From IMG/VR virus record IMGVR_UViG_3300028563_000031, positions 1-45,413 of that record: a DNA stretch of 45,413 nt, one strand, 5' to 3'. Each line of letters opens with the position of its first letter. The stretch's first letter is position 1. A program made the position numbers and the translations under genes. This stretch comes from a virus. The notes under the pieces were generated by a model. That model was given only the letters and a program-made list of their open reading frames with translations. It was not told where the DNA came from and did not search any database. This document shows positions 3,309 to 44,863 of this stretch, one piece after another.

Positions 3309-4529
3309 ATGAAAAAAAAACAGACTGATGTAGACGTAATCATGCCAAAGCTCGTACAGGGCGAAAAGGCTTGGTTTGTGGAATATTGTTGCTTCTGCCC
3401 ACGAACTAATAAATTAGAAAAATTCAGGGTTTACAAAGGCTTCAAAAAGCTGAAGACTGAAAAAGAAAAGATTCATTTTGGAAATGAAATAATTAAAGTC
3501 TTTTCGAAGCAGCTTCTATCCGGTTGGCGACCCTGGGACCATACTGTTTATTTGTATCGTGATGAAATTCAATATAAATCGGTAACAAATAGTTTTGGAA
3601 ACAAAAAAAACAATAGTTCCCACCTCCGAAAATATCTCTCAGATTTTCTAATTGAGACAAAGCGTCGGGTCTCAAAAAAATCATACGAAACTTACCAGGG
3701 GAAAACCCGCTTATTCTGTCAATGGCTCGAAGAAAATGGCTATAAAGACTTACGTGTATTCGAAATACAGAATGCTGTCGTTAAAAAATACTTCAATTAT
3801 CTGATTGATACAAGAAAGTTGGATAAGGTCACGGTTGATAAATACTGTCAGAATATCAATCAATTGTTTAAATTCTTCGTTAAGCAAAAACTTATTGATA
3901 AGAATCCGGTATTTGATATTGTGCTTCCACCGAAACGAAAAGACATGGCCGCGCGCCCGATGGCGGATGATGATATGAAAGTTTTCCTAAATTATGTGGC
4001 GATCAAAGATGAGCAGTTCCTTCTGGCCTGTTTAATGCAATTTTTTTTATGTTGTAGGCCAGGCAATGAATTACGTTTGCTGAAAATACAAGATATTGAC
4101 TTTTACGCCGGAGTAGTACATATTACTCAGGAAGATGGCAAAACCGGCACCCGTAAAATAACAATGCCATCCGCACTAATAGAATTGTGCAATAATTATA
4201 AATTGAGTGATTATCCACGAGCTTATTATGTTTTTTCCATTAATGGAAAGCCTGGAATGAAGGAATTAAGCCGTAACTTTTTTTACAGAAAATTTATAAA
4301 ATATCGTAACGAACTTGGATTGCCACTCATATATAAGTTTTACAGTTTTAAACACACCGGCGCGGGTAAATTGCTGGAAAGTGGCGCAACGCTGAGTGAA
4401 ATAATGAGCCATTTGGGACATACATCGTTGGAAAGTACATGTGCATACGTGAAGCGGCATTTTGGGCAAAAATCAGAAAAGGTGTTGAACTTTAGGCCAG
4501 AGGTGTTAAACGGAATTATTAAGTTTTAA
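3309..4529 (+). CDS. int: Tyrosine recombinase (phage integrase)
   Basis: A 406-aa site-specific recombinase that integrates and excises the phage chromosome. The N-terminal part (about 1-100) is basic and probably arm-binding, residues 105-200 form the core-binding SAM-like domain, and 210-400 the catalytic domain. Catalytic residues visible are R250 (CCRPGNE), H371 (LGHTS) and nucleophile Y380 (TCAYVKR). The usual HxxR box reads YSFK at 345-348, so the second arginine is lysine; I know this K-H-T variant from Bacteroidota integrases. Translated rightward, its 3' end overlaps the convergent tail gene by 11 bp. The attachment site is probably just upstream. Confidence 0.93.
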   Translation: MKKKQTDVDVIMPKLVQGEKAWFVEYCCFCPRTNKLEKFRVYKGFKKLKTEKEKIHFGNEIIKVFSKQLLSGWRPWDHTVYLYRDEIQYKSVTNSFGNKKNNSSHLRKYLSDFLIETKRRVSKKSYETYQGKTRLFCQWLEENGYKDLRVFEIQNAVVKKYFNYLIDTRKLDKVTVDKYCQNINQLFKFFVKQKLIDKNPVFDIVLPPKRKDMAARPMADDDMKVFLNYVAIKDEQFLLACLMQFFLCCRPGNELRLLKIQDIDFYAGVVHITQEDGKTGTRKITMPSALIELCNNYKLSDYPRAYYVFSINGKPGMKELSRNFFYRKFIKYRNELGLPLIYKFYSFKHTGAGKLLESGATLSEIMSHLGHTSLESTCAYVKRHFGQKSEKVLNFRPEVLNGIIKF

Positions 4530-9808: not shown

Positions 9809-11632
9809 TTAATTATGATTAATTGTTATTGATTTTCCAGCAGCTGTAAATAGCGCATACAAATGGATAATATTAGTGTTACTGTTCCCATTCGTTGGCG
9901 CCGCGTTCGTTCCTGCGTTAATTGTTACGGATAAATTGGCTGTCGGAGGGTGCGCTGTGAAATAAGTATCCAGTGCGGAAAGTAAATTGTTAATGCTGGC
10001 TGTGTTTAGTGCACAATTGCTAAAATTAATATTTGTAAATGACTGATTGATAACCGGCATTGTTAAGGTTGTTAAGCCTGTATTGTTGTAGCCATATAAC
10101 GTACCGCCAAGGTTGCTAATGGTTGATAAATCTAAGGTAGTCAATCCATTTGCATAAACATAATATCGAATAAAGATTGTAGAAGATATTGGGTTTGTAA
10201 TTCCGGTTATTGCAGCAATTCCGGTAACTTCAAAATCAGATAAAACAGTTGCACCACTAATATCAAGAGTTCCGGATAAAGCAAGGGATGTTCCCTGAGC
10301 TAAAAATGTAGTTAATTTAGTTAACCCAGCACTTGATCCATTAATTGTTAAAGCATTTCCAATTAAATATAGAAAGTATAATTGTGGTTTGCTTGCTATT
10401 GATCCTGTAACTGTTAACGAATTACCCACTAATGATAATGCATATAAAGAACTTAATCCAGTAATTGATCCGGAACAAGTCATATTGGCACCAGATATTG
10501 TTAAGCTTTGTACTAAAGTTAAAGTTGATATATCACCTGAAACGGTTAAGGATGCGCCGCTTAAAATAATCGTCGTGGCTTTTGTTAAACCAGCAATTGA
10601 TCCGGAGCATGTCAAACTGGAACCAGTAAGACACAATGTTACAGCATTAACAATATTCGTTATTGAACCAGAAAAATTATAATTGTTTCCACTAATATAT
10701 AAATATGTTAGATTTACTAAACCTGAAATTGATCCTGAAATAGTTGTTGATGGCGTATTATATAATTCTAAAAATGTAAGATTTGAGAAATTATCAATTG
10801 TCCCACTTATTGACATATTGGGACACTCTTGCAAATAAAGTACAGTTAATCCGGTAATACCATTAATTGATCCTGTAAAACTTCCATTTAGACTCCTAAG
10901 TGTTAAAGATGTCAAATTGACTAATCCACTAATTGAACCATTTATTGTACTTGGTGATGCTCCAGCAATTAAAAGATATGTTAAATTAATTAAACCCGTT
11001 ATTGAACCTGAAAAATTAAAACTGGAACCACTCAATGATAAGCTGGTTAAATTGACTAATCCAGTAATTGAGCCTGTGCATAAAATGGAATTTCCATTTA
11101 GTGCCAATGACGTTAAATTAGTAAAATTGGTTAAATCACCTATAACGTTAGAAATGTTATTTATAGATATACTTAAAATCGTTTGGCTTAATTGAGTAAT
11201 ATTTAAATAAGAACATGCAACACTAGAAACAGTAAATTCTAACAGTCCGGTAAAATGTGATACAGAAGTAAAATACCCTAAATCAATATTTGATGATGAC
11301 GTTTCAAAATGCAATACAGAATCTAAGTCGCCAGTTATTGTTATGGTATAAGTTTGATTTTTACCTGCATAATTAGAAGTATATGCGGTATTTGATGTAG
11401 CTGTTACCGGAGTAATTGTACCATTACCCCAATTAATATAAGCGGTTTTGCCAACTGCCATACGCAACGTAATAGCAGATTGAACATTTGATGCGCCCTG
11501 GATGGAATACAAAGTCGGATTAATATTCCTGGATGGAAAATAATAAAATGGTCTTAACACTCTCCTTTTTGGAAATGCATCAAGGCCGCTTTGCAGCTTA
11601 TTTTCAGGAAAGCCAAATAATCCGTTATTCAT
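9809..11632 (-). CDS. Leucine-rich-repeat tail appendage protein, 607 aa
   Basis: An extended repetitive protein. After about 60 residues there is a PKD/BspA-like strand region (INWGNGTITPV ... YTITITGDLDSVLHF). From about residue 150 to 520 come roughly fifteen LRR-like repeats of about 23-24 residues with the pattern GSITGLVNLTSLSLSGSSF. The C-terminal 55 residues form a separate cap with HPPTANLSVTI. LRR solenoids present large binding surfaces, and in Bacteroidota BspA-like LRRs mediate adhesion; here receptor recognition is inferred. It lies between a virion jelly-roll-like gene and two small fibre-associated genes. Repeats make it prone to length change by recombination. Confidence 0.8.
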   Translation of the reverse strand: MNNGLFGFPENKLQSGLDAFPKRRVLRPFYYFPSRNINPTLYSIQGASNVQSAITLRMAVGKTAYINWGNGTITPVTATSNTAYTSNYAGKNQTYTITITGDLDSVLHFETSSSNIDLGYFTSVSHFTGLLEFTVSSVACSYLNITQLSQTILSISINNISNVIGDLTNFTNLTSLALNGNSILCTGSITGLVNLTSLSLSGSSFNFSGSITGLINLTYLLIAGASPSTINGSISGLVNLTSLTLRSLNGSFTGSINGITGLTVLYLQECPNMSISGTIDNFSNLTFLELYNTPSTTISGSISGLVNLTYLYISGNNYNFSGSITNIVNAVTLCLTGSSLTCSGSIAGLTKATTIILSGASLTVSGDISTLTLVQSLTISGANMTCSGSITGLSSLYALSLVGNSLTVTGSIASKPQLYFLYLIGNALTINGSSAGLTKLTTFLAQGTSLALSGTLDISGATVLSDFEVTGIAAITGITNPISSTIFIRYYVYANGLTTLDLSTISNLGGTLYGYNNTGLTTLTMPVINQSFTNINFSNCALNTASINNLLSALDTYFTAHPPTANLSVTINAGTNAAPTNGNSNTNIIHLYALFTAAGKSITINHN

Positions 11633-25622: not shown

Positions 25623-27557
25623 TTATAAACCAGTAATATGTGCGCTATCCGGAATAGCTTTTGGTTTATATTGTTCACCATATAAACCCCATAATAGGTA
25701 CATTAAAGCTGAAGGTAGTTGCGTAGAAAACCAAACCTGATCTTCATATTCCAGTTTTACTTCGCTGGTTTTGTCAAGTTCAATTCCAAAACCTTTCTCT
25801 CTTTTTAGCGGGCTCATATAAATACAAGAGATTAATTGTTCACACTCATACTGGCAAATTCCTATGCGTGGGGTACGTTTCTCACGTTCACTGAGCAATA
25901 TTTCAAGTAACATAAAATGTTCCCAATAGAATATAGTGCGCTGATCGGAAGGTGTGCAAAGTTCAACCCTCCATCCGAGATCCTCCAGACAACGTTTTAA
26001 AATCGCTATGTCAGTCTTACCTTTTGGGTTATTTGCATATATTTCTTTGCGTTGATTACCGGCACGATCGTAATATATCCGCATGTATTTCTTTTGATGT
26101 GGCCTGAAGAATTCATTTATCTCCAGAGCTAAATCAAAATGTTGCCTGGGAGTCCAGACAAAGAAGTTTTTTAATACTTTGAGGTCATTTCCTTTCTCCT
26201 GGGCGATAACGCAACTCATAAAGTTGCCCGGATCGAATCCCATAAGCAAAGGTTTGCATGTATCGCAGTATTTAAGGTCAGCGCTAGTTCGCTTATATTC
26301 TCCCGCTACGTTTACATCATCAAAACCACCAGGTCCTTTATCATATTTATAACTGTCAGTAAAAATATGTTGCTTTCCAAACCAGGCAAAGAACATTTCT
26401 TTAACCCTGTCAGGCCTTATGCCTAAAATAGACAATAAAAACTTTGAAACGTTACTTTTAGCGCCTTTGAACTGACGTGTAATATAATCATTGCCCAAAA
26501 CAGCCAGATTACTGAAGGATGAACCTTTAATATATGACCATAATCCGGATTCTTCCTTACGTTTTTCGAGTAGAAAAGCCTTCCAACGATTAATAAACCT
26601 TGTTAATCGTAATATTTCGGCCTCCGCAGACTTAATTTTGGTTAATAAACCTGATTTTCTGGCTTCTTCAAGGTCTACTTCAGCATTTAAAAGCTCTCCT
26701 TCAGCTTTTAGAGTACGAAAAGCAATGTATTCAATCAAATCAAGTGCCGATCGGTTAACATTTTCTTCGTAATGCGTCCACCAGTCTTCATCGTTTTCAA
26801 AATTTGGAGTACTTGAGAATCCTGTCATTCCACCGAAATAGTGAGAATGGCCATATATTTCCCTGTCTTCACGTAAAGTTGGAAATACCCGTTCAACAAA
26901 ATCGGTTTCTTTAATGCGTAAAAGTTCGTCAACAAACACATGTACAACGCTTTTACCAATAATACTTTCAGGACGGTCAAGGCTTCCAAATAACAAAACG
27001 GTTCCCCACGCAAATGAAATGGTATGTTTCCATGATCCAACCGGAGTCAACGGCCTTTTAAAATGTTTGGGCGGCTCCTTGCCGTATTCATAATGTATAC
27101 CTCTAGTATAATGCTTACCCAAATATGTAATGATGCCTGGTACAATTGTATCCATGGCAAACGTATAAGTTGGAGCAACCAGCAACATTGTACTCCTGGG
27201 CATATCATAAGTAATGCGAACAATGCGGGGAGCGAACATCTCAGTAGTTTTGCCGGATCCTCGACCAACTTCACCAAGCAAATTTTGAGTGTCTGATAAT
27301 AAAACATGATGCTGAACAACAGTATTATATTTATCAATAAATTCTATATTACTGTTATAAAATCCAGCGACCATGCTCATTGCAAAAACACTCGACCCGG
27401 AGAAGTCAAAAAAACTATCTAAATTTAAGTGAGGAAGTATTGATATGATTAAGGAGAAAGCAACAATGGCGATGAGTAGCAAAGCAAATTTTCTCAGTAA
27501 TTTAAGTCTATAAAGAAAAATATTGCTTTGGCTTCTGGCTAATTGCTTTTTATTCAT
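25623..27557 (-). CDS. terL: Terminase large subunit with an unusual N-terminal membrane-anchor module, 644 aa
   Basis: The ATPase-nuclease that packages DNA. Walker A is GRGSGKTT at 98-105, Walker B is in VVHVFVDELLR around 203-213, and the nuclease acidic residues lie in MGFDPGNFMS (near 415) and MRIYYDRAGN (near 470). Unusually, the first about 70 residues precede the normal start of the domain and contain a basic patch (NKKQLARSQ), a hydrophobic helix at about 23-41 and SFFDFSGSSVFAMSMVAGF. This module recurs at the start of the 337-aa virion protein. A shorter start at M60 or M62 would remove it. It overlaps the upstream gene by 8 nt. Confidence 0.93.
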   Translation of the reverse strand: MNKKQLARSQSNIFLYRLKLLRKFALLLIAIVAFSLIISILPHLNLDSFFDFSGSSVFAMSMVAGFYNSNIEFIDKYNTVVQHHVLLSDTQNLLGEVGRGSGKTTEMFAPRIVRITYDMPRSTMLLVAPTYTFAMDTIVPGIITYLGKHYTRGIHYEYGKEPPKHFKRPLTPVGSWKHTISFAWGTVLLFGSLDRPESIIGKSVVHVFVDELLRIKETDFVERVFPTLREDREIYGHSHYFGGMTGFSSTPNFENDEDWWTHYEENVNRSALDLIEYIAFRTLKAEGELLNAEVDLEEARKSGLLTKIKSAEAEILRLTRFINRWKAFLLEKRKEESGLWSYIKGSSFSNLAVLGNDYITRQFKGAKSNVSKFLLSILGIRPDRVKEMFFAWFGKQHIFTDSYKYDKGPGGFDDVNVAGEYKRTSADLKYCDTCKPLLMGFDPGNFMSCVIAQEKGNDLKVLKNFFVWTPRQHFDLALEINEFFRPHQKKYMRIYYDRAGNQRKEIYANNPKGKTDIAILKRCLEDLGWRVELCTPSDQRTIFYWEHFMLLEILLSEREKRTPRIGICQYECEQLISCIYMSPLKREKGFGIELDKTSEVKLEYEDQVWFSTQLPSALMYLLWGLYGEQYKPKAIPDSAHITGL

Positions 27558-34257: not shown

Positions 34258-35148
34258 TTAAGAATTAAATAATGATTTTATTTGTTGATTTTGAGCCTTA
34301 TTAAAGGCAAGTTGTATAATTTCATCGAATGGCATTACATTATCAATGAGGCCATTCATTTTTGCATTTATTTCGCCATAATTGGCAAAAAAGGTGCGCC
34401 CATTAAGCGTTCCTTCAACTGCGGGGTTAACGTTTGGCCGGTTAGTCTTAACTGTTTCCTGAAAATGAGTAGCCCATGGAGTGAGTTCTTCACTGATCAA
34501 TAATTCGGGGTTTCCTTTTTGGGCTTCAGTAATGGCTTTGTTTTTCCAATTGCTTTCGGGAGGTGTAACACGAATGAGTTTAATACCCATTTGTTTGTAC
34601 ATTTCATCATAGTTTGGAATATCGGCCATTACACCAATACTACCTACCTGGCACATTGGATCAATAGCGTTGATACTATCAAAGAATGAAGAGATGTAAT
34701 AAGCTGAACTCATGTCAATATTATCCACTGCAGCCAGGCATGGTTTGTTTTTCTTTGCCATGATCGCTTTCATTGGAAATATTGAATCAACTGTTCCACC
34801 AGGAGAGTTAACACGTGCCACAATTGCTTTGATGGCATCATTTTCAAATGCATCCTCGAACATGGCAGCAATATCTTCAGTGCCATAATCCCACCATGAT
34901 CCGGAACGAGTCAAAACTCCAGAAATGGGAATAACAGCAACGCCTTCCATTTCCTTGTCATCATCATTATTGCAGGGGTTGAGCATGTCATCGAAAATGC
35001 TCATTTTTAAAACAGGCTTATCAGGCAAGGTAAGAACCTGACCTTTGCTGATTGCTAATAAATAAGGATAGTATTTTACCATTGCTTCTGGAGTGACCAA
35101 AAGCGTACTGGTAAAAATTTCATCGAAGAATTTGGAATATTTCTGCAT
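34258..35148 (-). CDS. S49-family (SppA/protease C-like) prohead protease, 296 aa
   Basis: A ClpP/crotonase-fold serine protease. VNSPGG at 113-118 gives the oxyanion strand, MSSAYYISS at 146-154 contains the nucleophile Ser (S148), and GSIGVMADIPNY at 169-180 is the conserved loop; a Lys near 198-200 would complete the dyad. It precedes the scaffold-capsid fusion directly, as head-maturation proteases do. Its start codon lies 3 nt from the foot of a 15-bp perfect hairpin, and a GTCCTTTA element overlaps the other foot, so translation of the head operon may be controlled there. Confidence 0.9.
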   Translation of the reverse strand: MQKYSKFFDEIFTSTLLVTPEAMVKYYPYLLAISKGQVLTLPDKPVLKMSIFDDMLNPCNNDDDKEMEGVAVIPISGVLTRSGSWWDYGTEDIAAMFEDAFENDAIKAIVARVNSPGGTVDSIFPMKAIMAKKNKPCLAAVDNIDMSSAYYISSFFDSINAIDPMCQVGSIGVMADIPNYDEMYKQMGIKLIRVTPPESNWKNKAITEAQKGNPELLISEELTPWATHFQETVKTNRPNVNPAVEGTLNGRTFFANYGEINAKMNGLIDNVMPFDEIIQLAFNKAQNQQIKSLFNS

Positions 35149-35728: not shown

Positions 35729-36235
35729 TTAGCAAATAATTCGATTTTGTGATTGTGCTTTTTGCTGATTTTTTCGAACCGAAACTAATATTTTCCAGCG
35801 TTGATAATCTTTGATTGCCCGATCAGAATATTTTGAATCAATATTACATTCATCAAGAAATAAATTAACACATTCCTTGTATGAAAAACCGCCATTTCTA
35901 AAATCTTTCATGCGCTCATGAAAATAAAAGCGGTAAGCCTTCTCAATTGCCCTTGCTAATACTTCATTTCGAGTAGTGCTGATGTAATTATAATAAAATG
36001 GATCCTTATCCGGTTGAAAAGGGGTCTCAATTATAAACATTTCCTCTCCAAAATCCGGGGTTTTATAATTTGGTGGGCTTGGCATCAAAAGATTATTGAA
36101 TTTATATGCCAAACAAAGCTCATCAGCATCAGCCCTGGGAAATTTAAAAACCGGTTCACTTATCTGGTAGTAACCTCTTAAAAATTGTTGATAGAATGGT
36201 TCTAAACGAATGCGGGTTAGGATTCCACTGCTCAT
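35729..36235 (-). CDS. Hypothetical helical protein, 168 aa
   Basis: A soluble protein beginning MSSGILTRIRLEPFYQQFLRGYY. The C-terminal half is helical and basic (NEVLARAIEKAYRFYFHERMKDFRNGG ... DYQRWKILVSVRKNQQKAQSQNR). It stands between the anti-defence genes and the head genes, with gaps on both sides. Its position before the late modules makes a late regulator conceivable; nothing in the sequence demonstrates it. Confidence 0.62.
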   Translation of the reverse strand: MSSGILTRIRLEPFYQQFLRGYYQISEPVFKFPRADADELCLAYKFNNLLMPSPPNYKTPDFGEEMFIIETPFQPDKDPFYYNYISTTRNEVLARAIEKAYRFYFHERMKDFRNGGFSYKECVNLFLDECNIDSKYSDRAIKDYQRWKILVSVRKNQQKAQSQNRIIC

Positions 36236-37471: not shown

Positions 37472-37777
37472 TCATGTAAATTTAAATCTCTCATTATCTT
37501 TAACTATAGTAGTCGTAAATGGAAATCCTTCATCCGGTATCTGTTGAATTACCTCAATTAAACCTCCTGCTGAAGTAAAAACGATGTGCTTTTCATTATC
37601 AACAGAGATCTGAAGCTGCAAACATTTACCGCTTCCACGTTCCTTGAAACATTTAGAGTCATCAATTTTGAAATGATATACCACGATTTCGCGGTTTAGG
37701 ATCTTCGACATTTTAATTTTATCACCTTCGTATCCTTTTGAGGGTTCTTTAATTTTAAACTGACTAAAATTATTCAT
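37472..37777 (-). CDS. Small beta-rich protein coupled to the DGR reverse transcriptase, 101 aa
   Basis: Its start overlaps the reverse transcriptase stop by 8 nt, so it is translated with it. The sequence alternates strands (REIVVYHFKIDDS, KCLQLQISVDNEKHIVFTS, PFTTTIVKDNERFKF) with SKCFKERGSGKCLQLQI, consistent with a small beta-barrel (OB-like) protein. It is not the usual helical Avd accessory protein of DGRs by composition. It could replace Avd as an RNA- or DNA-binding partner; this is speculation from coupling. Confidence 0.7.
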   Translation of the reverse strand: MNNFSQFKIKEPSKGYEGDKIKMSKILNREIVVYHFKIDDSKCFKERGSGKCLQLQISVDNEKHIVFTSAGGLIEVIQQIPDEGFPFTTTIVKDNERFKFT

Positions 37778-38723
37778 GTAATAACTTCTTTAATAAATGT
37801 ATACTATTACAATGACTAGCCCAGCCATTGTATGATGCTATGGATTGTTTATTCTTATTGTTTACCAACATCCTGGCAAAGTTCTGTTTAATGCTTTTCC
37901 TTAAAAGAGTATGTGTATGATGGAAAACGTAACCTACAAAATCAATTCCCCTGGCCTTTACCGGAAAGATTTGATAATTATCCTTTATTTGCAGTTTAAG
38001 CCTTTCATTCATATATATTTTTATGTCTGCAAGCAATTTGTGTAAGTACGGTTTGCTATTCGATAAAATAACCAGGTCATCAGCATATCTGAAGTAATAT
38101 TGTACATGCTTTTCTTCTTTCATCCAGTGATCAAAATATGACAAATAGAAATTTGCGAAATATTGGCTGAGATAATTGCCAATGGGTAATCCATCAGTGC
38201 TGTCAATAATTTCATCAAGGAGCCATAATAGATCCAGGTCTTTAAACTTTCGGCGAAGCAATTGCTTCAAAATATTATGATTTATGTTCGGATAGAACTT
38301 TTTAATGTCGAGTTTCATACAATATTGCGTTGCATCTTTATCTTTTAATGCATTTTTAACTGCATTAGCGCAAGCGTGAATTCCCCTTTTTTTAATACAA
38401 CTATAAGTATCGGCGGTAAATGTTGATACAAAAATAGGTTCAAGTATATGCATAATTGCATGGTGAGTGATGCGATCAGGAAAATATGGCAACCTGAATA
38501 TAATCCTTTCTTTTGGTTCGTGTATTGTAAAGGTTGTATAATCAGAAGTTTTGTAAGTTTTATTTATAAGCATTTCGTGAAGCTTCACTATGTTTTCATC
38601 CCTGTTTTTATCGTGTTCAATTATACCAGGTTGTTTTGATTTCCCTTTTCGGGCAATAATATCAGCCAATTGAATATTTTCAATGCTGCAGATCTGTTCG
38701 TATAAATTATTAATCCTTTTCAT
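37770..38723 (-). CDS. Diversity-generating retroelement reverse transcriptase, 317 aa
   Basis: Motifs occur in RT order: KERIIFRLPYFPDRITHHAI (71-90), YCMKLDIKKFYPNI (134-147, catalytic D139), DGLPIGNYLSQYFANFYL (177-194), and FRYADDLVIL (211-220, catalytic D215/D216), then GIDFVGYVF. IGNYLSQ, in place of the QGxxxSP of retroviral enzymes, is the DGR signature in motif 4. No integrase or maturase domain is present. It is transcribed after the two target genes and the 82-nt template 101 bp upstream. It would copy the template RNA with errors at adenines and write the cDNA into the variable repeats. Confidence 0.97.
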   Translation of the reverse strand: MKRINNLYEQICSIENIQLADIIARKGKSKQPGIIEHDKNRDENIVKLHEMLINKTYKTSDYTTFTIHEPKERIIFRLPYFPDRITHHAIMHILEPIFVSTFTADTYSCIKKRGIHACANAVKNALKDKDATQYCMKLDIKKFYPNINHNILKQLLRRKFKDLDLLWLLDEIIDSTDGLPIGNYLSQYFANFYLSYFDHWMKEEKHVQYYFRYADDLVILSNSKPYLHKLLADIKIYMNERLKLQIKDNYQIFPVKARGIDFVGYVFHHTHTLLRKSIKQNFARMLVNNKNKQSIASYNGWASHCNSIHLLKKLLHE

Positions 38724-38824
38724 TTGCCTTTGCTTTTAAAAGATCGCATTCCCCGAAAGTACCAGCGCTCTTTATGGTAATGTTATTTTTTGCCATGCGG
38801 GCAAGGTTTATGTTGCAAATATTC

Positions 38825-38906
38825 GCATAGGTGAGAACTGACGTTCGTATTCGTGTTCGTATAGTTGTAATTCGAATTCGACAAAACGAACCTGGAACCG
38901 GAAGAC
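38825..38906 (-). ncRNA. DGR template repeat (TR), 82 nt
   Basis: Read on the minus strand it encodes SSGSRFVLSNSNYNYTNTNTN. It has 21 adenines, six AAY codons among them. Compared with VR1 it differs at 13 positions and with VR2 at 15; every difference is at a template adenine, and all 61 non-adenine bases are identical in all three. It lies between the first target gene and the reverse transcriptase. Confidence 0.97.
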
Positions 38907-38942
38907 ACTAGCAGCTCTGGCAACATACAACCTTAATATCAA

Positions 38943-39356
38943 TTAAAAAAAATAGTCCTGGTATTCGGCCTTAAACTGCTTTGCAATGTATAATGACTTT
39001 TCAGATGTATCAGTGCAAAGGCGAGAACCGACGTACGTAAACGCGATCGTATAGTCGTAACCCGAATCCGACAAAACGAACCCGGAACCGGAAGACTTAA
39101 CTTCATACCATGGATAGTATTTATATTGATTCCAATCGGTATAATCAGCAATCCATCCATTGTTAATTGCCTGAAAGATGATCATCAGTTTATAAGCATT
39201 AATTATTGCTTTTCTTAAACCTTCAGGTAACATGGATACATCTGGAAGTTTTTCAGGATCCACATTTTCTTTTTTACAGGCGTCTTCAAAGCTTTTAATC
39301 ATTTTAAAATTGAACTCGACCGTCTTTTTAACTGTTTTTTTTGCTTTAGTTTCCAT
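38943..39356 (-). CDS. DGR target protein 1, 137 aa
   Basis: A small soluble protein with no signal peptide or membrane helix. The N-terminus is Lys-rich, and a helical part follows to about residue 70. Then comes the conserved frame YYPWYEVKSSGSGFVLS, the variable region, and VGSRLC followed by a helix (SEKSLYIAKQFKAEYQDYFF). I know this PW.. GSGF .. VGSRLCF pattern from short Bacteroidota phage proteins. Template-encoded NSNYNYTNTNTNVSSH is here DSGYDYTIAFTYVGSR, so most template Asn codons have been changed. It is 17 nt after target 2 and precedes the template. Confidence 0.92.
   Translation of the reverse strand: METKAKKTVKKTVEFNFKMIKSFEDACKKENVDPEKLPDVSMLPEGLRKAIINAYKLMIIFQAINNGWIADYTDWNQYKYYPWYEVKSSGSGFVLSDSGYDYTIAFTYVGSRLCTDTSEKSLYIAKQFKAEYQDYFF
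39015..39096 (-). repeat. DGR variable repeat 1 (VR1), 82 nt
   Basis: Aligned without gaps to TR 38825-38906 (constant offset 190). Thirteen of 21 template adenines are substituted (to G or T), with no other change. It ends 23 codons before the gene end. Confidence 0.97.
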
Positions 39357-39373
39357 TGTTTATTTGGTTTAGA

Positions 39374-39829
39374 TTATAAAAAATAGTTGTAAAGATCAAT
39401 GAATTGCTGTGCTACGTAGTTTGATTTTTCTTCGCTTTCAAAGCAAAGGCGAGAACCGACGTACGTAAACGCGTACGTACAGTCGGAATCCGAAGACGAC
39501 AAAACGAACCCGGAACCGGAAGACTTTGTAAATACCGGGAACCATTTGGGTTGATTAGGATTGTTAAAGTCTGGAACAAAATTGCCATTTACTGCACTGA
39601 TAACTACTTTTAATTTTTTATAGGCAATTTCATCAGGCGTATCAGAAGAATTGAAAACGATATCTTCCGGTTTAATGCCTTTAAATACACAGGCATCTTC
39701 TAAAGTTTTAATGTCCTCAAAACTTTGTTTATTGAAGGTTTTCTCTCCAAATTCTGAAACCAATTGTTCTTTGAACCAATCAGGTGAATCAGAATAGATC
39801 CTTTTTGCAACTGTTTTTGTTATTTCCAT
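39374..39829 (-). CDS. DGR target protein 2, 151 aa
   Basis: A paralogue of target 1. The N-terminal 80 residues diverge, but KWFPVFTKSSGSGFVLS, the variable region and VGSRLCFESEEKSNYVAQQFIDLYNYFL align directly. The variable residues are SSDSDCTYAFTYVGSR against the template NSNYNYTNTNTNVSSH. No signal peptide is seen. One template therefore serves two different scaffolds. It lies 36 nt after the membrane zinc-finger gene. Ligand-binding diversification is the known DGR purpose; what this protein binds is unknown. Confidence 0.92.
   Translation of the reverse strand: MEITKTVAKRIYSDSPDWFKEQLVSEFGEKTFNKQSFEDIKTLEDACVFKGIKPEDIVFNSSDTPDEIAYKKLKVVISAVNGNFVPDFNNPNQPKWFPVFTKSSGSGFVLSSSDSDCTYAFTYVGSRLCFESEEKSNYVAQQFIDLYNYFL
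39443..39524 (-). repeat. DGR variable repeat 2 (VR2), 82 nt
   Basis: Aligned without gaps to TR; 15 of 21 template adenines are substituted (to G, T or C), nothing else. VR1 and VR2 differ from each other at 7 positions, all template adenines and all in the 5' two-thirds, while the last 30 nt are identical. Confidence 0.97.
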
Positions 39830-40483: not shown

Positions 40484-40951
40484 TTTATGGTTTGGTTTTA
40501 AAAATGTAAAAAAAATCTCTTTTTTGAATTTGTGTTTTTTCTGCTCCAACGCTCCAACGATCCAACAGAAAATCATTAAATCATTAAATATTAACAATAT
40601 AACTCTTTATTTTTGTTGGAGCAGTCCTAAAAAAATTGGTTTTGACGTTCCAACAGAAATTTTTAAAAAAAAGGGGTGTTCCAACAAAAAACCAACGGTG
40701 TTCCAACAGAAAAATAAAATAAAATTTACACCCATATATATATATTATTTATTATTAACTATTTATATTATTATTATATGGCTCATTTAAAATCTTGTTG
40801 GATCGTTGGAGCGTTGGAACACCTTTTTCGGTTTTCAATTTTTGGTTTTTAAAAGTCTTTTTTTTGATGTCCTGGACTCCCATTTTTGAAAAAATTTCGA
40901 ACACTGCATTTTTTTATGATGGGGGTAACAGGGGGAAAATTGATAATAACC
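40484..40951. other. Iteron-rich intergenic region between primase-helicase and membrane gene
   Basis: A 468-bp stretch with no credible gene. It contains the TCCAAC/GTTGGA array at 40545-40818, an extremely AT-rich core (about 40735-40785, including ATATATATATATTATTTATT) and two G-runs near 40919-40936. The membrane protein reading frame can be extended into it, but the extension looks non-coding. Confidence 0.75.
40545..40818. other. Predicted replication origin: mirror-image iterons around an AT-rich core
   Basis: TCCAAC occurs at 40545, 40553 and 40561, exactly 8 bp apart, and GTTGGA at 40797, 40805 and 40813, again 8 bp apart. The two triplets make an inverted repeat of about 22 bp. Between them are further copies at 40615 (GTTGGA), 40649, 40680 and 40702 (TCCAAC), most inside TTCCAACA(G)AA. 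The interval includes a long A/T-only stretch suited to unwinding. It lies directly downstream of the primase-helicase. Iterons plus a DNA-unwinding element are the known make-up of origins. Confidence 0.72.
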
Positions 40952-43900
40952 TTAAAAGGGTAAATCATCCTTATTGCCGTTTCCATTATTATTAAAATCC
41001 ATCTTTATTTGTGACTCGTCAGCCGGACCATAATCAACTGCTATTTGAGGCGTACCGTCGCCATATTTTTCCAGGTCAATCATATCTTCGAGCAATTCAT
41101 AATCTAATGCCAGGGCGCTTGTATTAGCAGTTGCTTCCCTTGCTATCTTTGTTACCCTTTTTTCAATCGGATCAAATTGCTCTTCAATTTCTGTCCATGA
41201 AAACCGGGTACTTTTAACTGTACCAATATAACTGACATGATCCTTCAAGTAATTCATCAGGTTGTTAAGCTTCAGAGATTCTGTTTTTCGTACATCCTGA
41301 TACATGGCATGCAAAATATTGATGCGTAGGAATAATATCTTTTTTTCAGAAAAATTACGTTCTGCGGTTTCGTTCCGGTTCTCCATTACGGTTATTTTGC
41401 TCAGTTTTTCAATCTTAAATTCTTTACCAGGCTTAATTCCGTTTGGCCGATTCAATAGAAATACAATGGTGTCAAAGAATACGCTTACTCTATTGGTCGA
41501 GTTAATGGCCTCGCTCTGGGCAATTATCTTTGCCTTGGCGATATCATGAAAAGTTTTATAGGTAAATGGCAGTTTTAGCGATGGAACATGAACTTCCCAG
41601 AGTTTACACATAGCTGCAAAAAGCGAAACTGTGTTAAGAATACGTGTCTGGTGTGGCATGCCGCTTTTTGTCAAATCATCCTTTAATTGTTTGAATACAG
41701 CACGCTGGATCTTCTGGAAGTTATTGGATATAATGTCTCGTTGTTTGAGTACTTCAAGCAAAACATTTGATAATCCGGCTTTCTCTTTTTCCTTAAGCAA
41801 CCTGAACCATATGGACTCATTTTCACTCCAGTCATCCTTTTTTGGGACATGGCAGATTATACACCGATTGCCTAATGATCCGTCATCCCGTTCTGGTCCT
41901 TCCTGACCTAAAAGAACCGGCACTGCATTCACTTTTGTAATATCAAGATCTTTACTGGTTGCATCCTTTCGCTTTTGCTTTCCTTCACCATCGTATACCG
42001 CTGCCTTAAGTCCCTGAAATTTAATGTCGGATATCTGGTAATCGTTATATTCTTCATAAACTACCGGAACATCCCTATAGCGTTCCAGGGTTGTAAAAAA
42101 GGCGGCATCGGTACCTGAATTTAAGTTAAAAAGGGGAGCATCTGGTTTCATGTATAAACTCCGGATTGATATGGCAATTTGCGACTTGCCTGATTCAGTA
42201 GGACCAATAAAAAAGAGCGAAGTGAATAACCTGTCTATTGGATAAATGATTGACCGAAAGGCTGCCATCAAACTAAATAAGATTGCCCATTTACCATTGT
42301 CGCTGAGCTTGTAAACATCATCCATTAATTTTGCCCATTCGGCAAAGGTTGTCTCATTGTTTTCGCGATAAACAAAGAATCGGTCGTTCTCGAATTTGTC
42401 ATTATCCTGGCGTAAACCTGAAAAGATCTTGGAGAAGGCTGGTGAGTAATATGTTTTATCTTTAAAAGGCGCCAGGCCAAGATCATCAACATAGGTTATT
42501 TTATTATCGGCAAATATGGCGTTGGTGAATGCCCAGAAACCTTCATGTTGCTGCCCGAAAACATTCAACTCCCAACATTCCGGGAAATCTTTTGCAATGC
42601 TGGCTAGTATGGTTTCATGATGGTTCGATTTGCCTTTGGTAAATATGTTTCCGCCTTCATTAAATAATACCTTTTTGAACATTGCAAAATCGATCATGGC
42701 CGATGAGTTCATTTCAACATAATTGCTCCGGCATTGCTCTGCATTATTGATCTTTATAACACGTTTGTTTTTATTTGGGTCAGGATCCTTAATGTGAAAA
42801 AGAGGTTCTATATAGAAATTTCCTATTACCTGTAAACCGCCTTCCTGTGTGCGAAAAACATATCTTACTTTGTCGCCTTTGCTATTCTGATAGGGAAAAT
42901 AACCCCAGCGAGCATAAAATTGCTGATCAACATATTCTGGCAACCGGTCGGGTTCAAATCGCATATTCTCAGCTTCTTCAAATACTTCATTTTGCAGGGC
43001 ATACCTTGATTTATTCTTCTCCAGGAAGGGTTTCATTACCTTTTTAAAATCAGCTTCCTTTATGCCCAGCTTTCCCGCGTATGTTTTTGTATTTACATTA
43101 ATATTGGTATTGTCCGATCCGGATAGAAGTTCTGCAGCGTCTTCGATGGCTTTGTTTCGTAACTCCTGATCGTACAAATTGGCGTTGATAAACTTTCCAG
43201 TAAGATAAAAGTAGTGTTCCATAAAAGAAATGGTTTCGGATACATACTTTTCATCGTCGGCATTTACTTTAAGGTTAAATTTGAAATTGTATAGTTGTTT
43301 GCAGAACTGTATTTGATCGGTAAGTTTATTGTCTTCTGTGTAAATCAAATCGATTGAATCTAAAAGATTGAGATTATGTGTTAAACTGTTAAGTTCCTGT
43401 ATCTGGCTAAAAGTTAAATTACCACGGTAGGATATTGTATTTTCTATGCCTTCATCCCATTTTCGATACATCAACTCAAGGTCTAACGTGATAAAAACTT
43501 CGTCCTGTTCCCTGATTGGTTCAGTTGCCCAGTCGAGATAGATCCAACCTGATTTTATGTTCTCCTGGCTGGGTTCTTTATGCTTGATATTACGTATTGT
43601 CTTATCTACCAGCTTCACATCAATCTTAAATTTTTCAATGCATAACCTTTTATACATATCCCGGGTAACAGGGTCCCGGATGAGAGATATTGAAGTTAAT
43701 AATTCCCTGATAAAATCAGCTTCCTTGAGCGGGTCCTTATCAGTTTCGGCCTTTAAAATTTCCTGTTTGAAAGTGATAAAGTCTTTTCTATGATCTTCAA
43801 TATAGTCAGCAAGTTCTTTTGAAGTTTTTCGACGGGCGAAACTATCAGGATCGTCACCTGTAGGAAGTGCAATTGCACGGACGTTTATATCTTCTCCAAG

Positions 43901-44863
43901 CATCAGATCAATGCTCTTGAATGATGCCTTAATCCCTGCGATATCACCATCATAAATAATAGTGATGTTATTGGTAAACCTCCGGATCAATCTTATTTGA
44001 TCAATTGTAAATGCTGTTCCGGATCCACAAACTGTATTTTCAATACCTGCCTGGTGAAAAGATGTAACATCAAAATTGCCTTCAACCAGATAACATTCAT
44101 CTTCTTTTATGATTGCCTGTTTAGCCTGGTATAATCCGAAAAGAGCCTTTCCTTTGCTGAATAACTTAGTGTCCTTACTATTTAGATATTTTGCATCCTT
44201 TTCAGTCGCCTCCAGGATACGGCCAGTAAAACCAATTACATTACCTGATAAGTCGAGAAAAGGAAATATAACACGGTTCCTGAAGTAATCATAAGCGTTT
44301 TTTTCGTTCCTTCCAATAAGTGATGAATCAAGTAAGAATGATTCTTTAAATCCTTTTTTGCGGGCGTTCTCCAGTAAATCGTTCCAGGATGATATTGCAA
44401 AACCAAGCTTAAACTTTTCAATGATGGCGCTTCCCTGTTGACGTTCCAAAAGATATTTTTTAACCTCCGGATTATCAATATTCGAATGGAAATAACCAAC
44501 TCCCCATTCATGAACTAGTTTAAGCGATTCGCGTTCATCGGCGTGGGCTTTTTCTTCAGGTGAAAGGTCTTTTTGTTCCACCTCAATGCCGTACTTTTTG
44601 CCCAACCATTTAACCGATTCAATAAATGTAAGGTTTTCGTGCGCCTGGATAAAGTCAATTGCATTGTTGCCGCCTTTGCCACAGCCAAAACATTTATATA
44701 TGCCTTTAGACTGGCTAACGGTAAAAGATGGTGTTTTCTCGGAGTGAAAAGGGCAGCAACCGATATAATTAACGCCGCGTTTTTTTAATGAAACAAATTC
44801 TGAGACAACATCTACAATGGAAGATGCCTGTATAATTTTATCAATCGTTTCTTGTGGGATCAT
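40952..44863 (-). CDS. Fused DnaG-type primase and helicase with SSB-like C-terminal tip, 1303 aa
   Basis: The CHC2 zinc finger spans about 37-61 (CPFH ... CFGC). The DnaG core includes YFRNRVIFPFLDLSGNVIGFTGR (about 193-215), and TOPRIM motifs EGNFD (261-265) and DGD (305-307). A long middle region is followed by Walker A GPTESGKS near 886-893 and LLGQEGPERDDGSLGNRCI, giving an AAA+/SF3-like helicase. The protein ends NNGNGNKDDLPF, the conserved acidic tip of bacterial SSB. No polymerase gene is visible, so it must prime and unwind for the host replisome. It overlaps the 105-aa gene by 1 nt and is followed by the predicted origin. Confidence 0.93.
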   Translation of the reverse strand: MIPQETIDKIIQASSIVDVVSEFVSLKKRGVNYIGCCPFHSEKTPSFTVSQSKGIYKCFGCGKGGNNAIDFIQAHENLTFIESVKWLGKKYGIEVEQKDLSPEEKAHADERESLKLVHEWGVGYFHSNIDNPEVKKYLLERQQGSAIIEKFKLGFAISSWNDLLENARKKGFKESFLLDSSLIGRNEKNAYDYFRNRVIFPFLDLSGNVIGFTGRILEATEKDAKYLNSKDTKLFSKGKALFGLYQAKQAIIKEDECYLVEGNFDVTSFHQAGIENTVCGSGTAFTIDQIRLIRRFTNNITIIYDGDIAGIKASFKSIDLMLGEDINVRAIALPTGDDPDSFARRKTSKELADYIEDHRKDFITFKQEILKAETDKDPLKEADFIRELLTSISLIRDPVTRDMYKRLCIEKFKIDVKLVDKTIRNIKHKEPSQENIKSGWIYLDWATEPIREQDEVFITLDLELMYRKWDEGIENTISYRGNLTFSQIQELNSLTHNLNLLDSIDLIYTEDNKLTDQIQFCKQLYNFKFNLKVNADDEKYVSETISFMEHYFYLTGKFINANLYDQELRNKAIEDAAELLSGSDNTNINVNTKTYAGKLGIKEADFKKVMKPFLEKNKSRYALQNEVFEEAENMRFEPDRLPEYVDQQFYARWGYFPYQNSKGDKVRYVFRTQEGGLQVIGNFYIEPLFHIKDPDPNKNKRVIKINNAEQCRSNYVEMNSSAMIDFAMFKKVLFNEGGNIFTKGKSNHHETILASIAKDFPECWELNVFGQQHEGFWAFTNAIFADNKITYVDDLGLAPFKDKTYYSPAFSKIFSGLRQDNDKFENDRFFVYRENNETTFAEWAKLMDDVYKLSDNGKWAILFSLMAAFRSIIYPIDRLFTSLFFIGPTESGKSQIAISIRSLYMKPDAPLFNLNSGTDAAFFTTLERYRDVPVVYEEYNDYQISDIKFQGLKAAVYDGEGKQKRKDATSKDLDITKVNAVPVLLGQEGPERDDGSLGNRCIICHVPKKDDWSENESIWFRLLKEKEKAGLSNVLLEVLKQRDIISNNFQKIQRAVFKQLKDDLTKSGMPHQTRILNTVSLFAAMCKLWEVHVPSLKLPFTYKTFHDIAKAKIIAQSEAINSTNRVSVFFDTIVFLLNRPNGIKPGKEFKIEKLSKITVMENRNETAERNFSEKKILFLRINILHAMYQDVRKTESLKLNNLMNYLKDHVSYIGTVKSTRFSWTEIEEQFDPIEKRVTKIAREATANTSALALDYELLEDMIDLEKYGDGTPQIAVDYGPADESQIKMDFNNNGNGNKDDLPF

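Follow-up and report, generated by a model that had tools for sequence, protein, structure and literature searches.

What is the function of a short array of GTTGGA repeats, arranged in mirror image beside a primase-helicase gene, and which protein reads it? The locus lies in a single IMG/VR record of 45,413 bp, analysed over its whole length and called the window here. We consider it likely that a temperate Bacteroidota phage starts its replication at this array and that the adjacent primase-helicase acts as initiator and binder; that the array works as an origin, taking all candidate binders together, is highly probable. The first-pass annotation of the window had proposed a probable origin, and this is still the best-supported reading, given a conserved architecture, a near-obligatory primase-helicase partner, AT-rich spacers and a helicase fold resembling that of SaPI Rep and Cch.

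A mirrored array of five parts

The array consists of an arm, an AT-rich spacer, a block of central iterons, a second AT-rich spacer and a second arm (Table 1). As 26-nt segments (40542-40567 and 40796-40821) the outer arms are 96% complementary. The triplet pattern GTTGGANNGTTGGANNGTTGGA occurs exactly twice in the 45,413 bases and not once in 100 shuffles of the window, which bears out the earlier judgement that the order is too regular for chance, and 10 of the 39 GTTGGA copies in the window fall inside the 274 bp of the array. Two inverted triplets at exact 8-bp spacing with four copies between them had been described in the first-pass annotation, and these coordinates are correct to the base. 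Its AT-rich core requires amendment, as AT-rich DNA is indeed present but takes the form of two spacers of 88% AT around a central repeat block of 63% AT; the 75-bp stretch richest in AT anywhere in the window starts at 40705 and overlaps the second of these spacers. Its statement that the triplets point towards each other holds when the core is read as TCCAAC, whereas read as GTTGGA they point away from the centre.

The array lies directly beside the primase-helicase gene, as first described, about 134 bp 3' of the stop codon, and the gene behind it in the window is a membrane zinc-finger gene. GC skew had been suggested as a check on origin function, and it shows no turn: neither the window nor a Porphyromonas phage has a change of sign where the array lies, and skew lends the origin no support. 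A near-identity DNA search among phages returned no match. The window also carries a diversity-generating retroelement at 37770-39829, with a reverse transcriptase at 37770-38723, a template repeat at 38825-38906 and variable repeats at 39015-39096 and 39443-39524, the latter two inside the neighbouring open reading frames 38943-39356 and 39374-39829; every difference between template and variable repeats falls at a template adenine, on the minus strand.

Table 1. Coordinates of the array, its proposed initiator and other genes in the window.
Feature	Position	Strand	Remarks
Tyrosine integrase	3309-4529		
Terminase	25623-27557		
Head protease	34258-35148		
c4 family protein	35729-36235	-	168 aa; rival binder or accessory
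Whole mirrored iteron array	40542-40821	none assigned	proposed replication origin; same layout in relatives
Outer arm 1	40545-40566	-	three GTTGGA octamers (GTTGGATC GTTGGAGC GTTGGA), 8-bp spacing; GTTGGA starts 40545, 40553, 40561
AT-rich spacer	40567-40614	none assigned	48 bp, 88% AT; candidate unwinding element
Central iteron block	40615-40707	none assigned	GTTGGA at 40615 (+), 40649 (-), 40680 (-), 40702 (-)
AT-rich spacer	40708-40796	none assigned	89 bp, 88% AT; candidate unwinding element
Outer arm 2	40797-40818	+	three GTTGGA octamers, 8-bp spacing, inverted relative to arm 1; GTTGGA starts 40797, 40805, 40813
Primase-helicase	40952-44863	-	1303 aa
C-terminal helix-helix domain with long beta-hairpins	41084-41443	-	residues ~1141-1260; proposed iteron-binding domain
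Beta-hairpin	41324-41413	-	residues 1151-1180; sequence changes with the iteron core in relatives

Recurrence in relatives and the tie to the primase-helicase

The same layout is found in scores of related viruses whose Bacteroidota hosts come from the gut, the mouth or the environment, with a core that differs from phage to phage. One relative, 53% identical, has GTTGGA repeats at the same place, and similar arrays are found in Porphyromonas phages, human gut phages, Cellulophaga phage Ingeline and a Flavobacterium phage, some of them built on GTAGGA, GTTCCA or GTTGAGA instead. Relatives of the primase-helicase were fetched from viral contigs and bacterial genomes and scanned with a detector blind to the core, which accepted any hexamer found twice at 8-bp spacing whose complement likewise occurred twice, 8 bp apart, at a distance of 120-700 bp. 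A mirrored array was detected in 86 of the 144 fetched loci, against 0.33 expected from shuffles, and in all 86 it lies 3' of the primase-helicase gene, at 38 bp to 6 kb, and never 5'. Some of these loci are the same phage in two collections, and counts of representatives were made after removal of primase-helicases at least 90% identical. Of the non-redundant relatives, 67 have at least 4 kb of 3' DNA; 62 of these carry either the strict mirror array or a dense iteron cluster, defined as one hexamer occurring at least seven times within 360 bp; by this density measure the 3' side scores in 61 of 67, the 5' side in 5 of 37 and shuffled sequence in 0 of 67.

The median layout, computed from the 40 arrays with a clear core and centre, follows the same plan: three octamers, 83 bp at 83% AT, a centre of about 110 bp, 77 bp at 74% AT and three octamers. 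The median centre contains six core copies, preferably spaced at 10 and 8 bp, and is 59% AT, compared with 57% for the loci overall. The iteron unit approximates TGTWGGNC, and outside the arms there is often GC followed by an A/T tract. In the Porphyromonas phage027a record (L014) two annotated hypothetical genes, 9916-10008 and 10051-10311, overlap the iteron array (9916-10311) and are probably spurious.

The primase-helicase is present in all 89 representatives and is the only gene family of which this is true, a result that follows by construction, the relatives having been found through this protein; the independent evidence comes from the reverse search. When 2.9 million viral contigs were scanned twice with only the mirrored pattern as query, 31 contigs were recovered and 27 encode the primase-helicase family, most of them inside the fetched stretch; five of the 27 were assigned by contig identity, being already among the fetched relatives. 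In three of the 27 (G001-G003) the array lies 8-30 kb from the primase-helicase, and with 27 of 31 array-only contigs encoding the protein the tie does not depend on adjacency. Three of the four contigs in which it was not found are fragments of 4.4-7.8 kb with arrays resembling that of G002. The fourth, an 11.5-kb viral contig (L177), has another setting, with four GTTGGA triplets at 8-bp spacing and alternating direction at 3755-4077, and is probably unrelated. The full mirrored pattern is needed for such searches, since GTTGGA triplets alone as query matched octanucleotide repeats in viral contigs without the primase-helicase; these microsatellites of CGTTGGAN (L009, 4993-5134; L007, 6245-6290) belong to unrelated contigs in which no primase-helicase was found.

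In the unlinked group the array (L174, 6100-6426; L156, 9194-9529; L180, 1982-2308) occupies a gap that separates a portal-like gene from the terminase genes. Since the gene bordering the array in G001-G003 lies directly upstream of the large terminase gene, and by position would encode the small terminase, this placement invites a reading as a packaging site, pac or cos, recognised by that protein. We regard this as very unlikely: adjacency to terminase genes is confined to this group and is not the constant association expected of such a site, in both the window and Porphyromonas phage027a 8-13 kb separate it from the terminase genes, the constant partner in the array-only scan is the primase-helicase, and directional packaging needs neither two-fold symmetry nor AT-rich spacers. 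A role as operator or enhancer, with a transcription factor as binder, would suit the array's place in a gene-poor gap upstream of a gene. It is disfavoured by the gene behind the array, which is not the same in all groups: c4 in most, the membrane zinc-finger gene in the window and one linked to the terminase in G001-G003. Nor is any regulator universal among the relatives, and this explanation, too, is highly improbable. An attachment site for the tyrosine integrase, which in a prophage would be split into attL and attR at the two ends, was considered and rejected, because long bacterial contigs such as L122 carry the array undivided, with primase-helicase and c4 on either side, and the annotated integrases of phage027a are more than 30 kb from it.

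The candidate initiator and the proposed reading of the core

The first-pass annotation had found no dedicated Rep protein, a view now superseded, as the 1303-residue primase-helicase is itself Rep-like, with the predicted fold of Cch and SaPI Rep. Its N-terminal part comprises a DnaG-type zinc finger, a primase core and a toprim domain. The C-terminal half, the AAA+ helicase, contains the P-loop GPTESGKS at residues 887-894 and has no Pfam match. Modelled from 75 relatives (pLDDT 91; model m572fc3a560f7), this half best matches SCCmec Cch (5dgk; Z 23.6 over 473 residues), followed by SaPIBov1 Rep (8tch; Z 21.6 over 456 residues), with MCM helicases next at Z 16.2. A profile of the helicase half from 75 relatives, searched against PDB sequences at E up to 10, retrieved neither a SaPI Rep nor a Cch chain; these relatives emerged from the fold comparison alone. 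Of the binders first suggested, the helicase, the membrane zinc-finger protein or an early small protein, the helicase is favoured; the membrane zinc-finger protein is not among the conserved families near the array.

Variation in the iteron core, which includes GTTGGA, GTAGGA, GTTGGT and GTAGGG, offers a view of which part of the protein may read it. Substitutions at the sixth base go together with changes in a segment of the C-terminal domain that forms a beta-hairpin in the predicted model. Across 311 close pairs, which share ancestry and are not independent, divergence of residues 1151-1180 best follows core change (partial r 0.61), amounting to 0.21 between phages with the same core and 0.45 between phages with different cores. 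Within one clade, in a tree built from residues 1-1100, the sixth base is G on four separate branches (L106; L108; L111/L024/L133; L107/L136/L142), and the hairpin motif MDGG is present in all G members and absent from every other member. Among the unlinked arrays, G003 and G002 differ at base 3 of the core and have 34 of their approximately 62 substitutions in the last 200 residues, whereas G001 and G003, with a core in common, have 20 of 148 there. A single recombination tract in L108/L104 spans both hairpin and array, so that physical linkage explains part of the covariation. Among close pairs the AAA+ region follows core change about as closely as the hairpin does, a linker near residues 350-400 tracks base 3 better, and in nearest-neighbour prediction of the core the hairpin performed no better than the whole protein. 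From this covariation and the fold, we propose the C-terminal domain of the primase-helicase as the part that binds the GTTGGA octamers.

The array could also be an origin at which another phage protein, above all c4 (about 170 aa), binds the iterons and recruits the primase-helicase in the manner of lambda O. The c4 family (~170-180 aa) is the most conserved after the primase-helicase and is usually encoded just after the array. It is encoded in 45 of 54 strict-array representatives, its gene usually starts within about 100 bp of the array, as is often the case for the genes of iteron-binding Rep proteins, and among close pairs it diverges more where the core has changed (partial r 0.37). Against this, c4 is not beside the array in the window, where it lies 4.2 kb away, nor in L137, L116 or G001-G003; it tracks the core weakly over all pairs (0.02 and 0.14; 0.15 up to 45% divergence), below the hairpin; and its confident model (pLDDT 94) gave no convincing DNA-binding match among solved structures, Foldseek returning nothing at E below 0.001 and VIA-align nothing with a Z of 5 or more. 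We think it unlikely that c4 or another such protein is the binder, keep it as a rival, and favour the primase-helicase in that role.

Proposed working and comparison with known systems

In the mechanism that we propose, the C-terminal domain of the primase-helicase would engage the octamers, the AT-rich spacers would melt, the AAA+ domain would unwind the DNA in both directions, and the fused DnaG-type domain, judged by its domain content, would make the primers. We further suggest, tentatively and with rather more doubt than conviction, that one five-part origin is common to these phages, its two inverted triplets seeding a pair of primase-helicase rings set head to head, that the hairpin is an exchangeable reader of the core, and that hairpin and core have diversified together, giving mutually exclusive origins to co-resident prophages. 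Literature searches found no description of such arrays, nor did they yield a replication origin already described for these Bacteroides, Prevotella and Porphyromonas phages. The array provides a signature by which the probable origin can be recognised across a large lineage of Bacteroidota phages, with a likely initiator named; its natural core variants form a ready set for testing the recognition code, and the self-contained cassette of initiator and origin is a possible base for replicating vectors in laboratory strains of these hosts.

Several known systems join short iterons to an initiator. In satellite phage P4, the alpha protein unites primase, helicase and origin binding and works with short iterons, a combination like the one proposed here; ori and crr are, however, separate sites kilobases apart, and the alpha primase domain is of another class. 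No P4 entry is among the fold matches listed for the helicase half. Lambda-type origins likewise place short repeats beside AT-rich DNA, but in lambda the iterons are part of the O gene itself, and the O protein has no helicase function.

The closer parallels are staphylococcal. SCCmec Cch, the best fold match, and Cch2, with its putative origin, resemble the present system in that Cch2 needs short direct repeats downstream of its own gene and binds them through its C-terminal domain (PMC7581432). Three AAGTG iterons are present in SCCmec, compared with about ten octamers here, and the SCCmec primase is a separate CCPol-MP complex. In the same published work SaPI Rep is reported to recognise, through its C-terminal domain, an iteron origin directly downstream of its own gene, and appears to bind it as two hexamers (PMC7581432). 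The likeness to SaPI Rep and its origin extends to a helicase fold over almost the whole modelled half, an iteron array directly 3' of the initiator gene (except in G001-G003), iterons accompanied by AT-rich DNA and element-specific cores, and may include a C-terminal domain as the recognition part. The phage protein differs in its N-terminally fused DnaG-type primase and in lacking sequence similarity detectable by profile search, and the phage array in its two octamer triplets, central block and two AT-rich spacers; the carriers here are full temperate phages of Bacteroidota, whereas SaPIs are satellites in Staphylococcus. We do not file the phage protein as a SaPI Rep member, because sequence similarity was not found and the fused primase and mirrored five-part layout set it apart. 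Our best reading, by analogy, is that this origin would be melted by its own primase-helicase and would work much as SaPI Rep and its ori do, the fused DnaG-type primase and the mirrored layout of five parts coming in addition.
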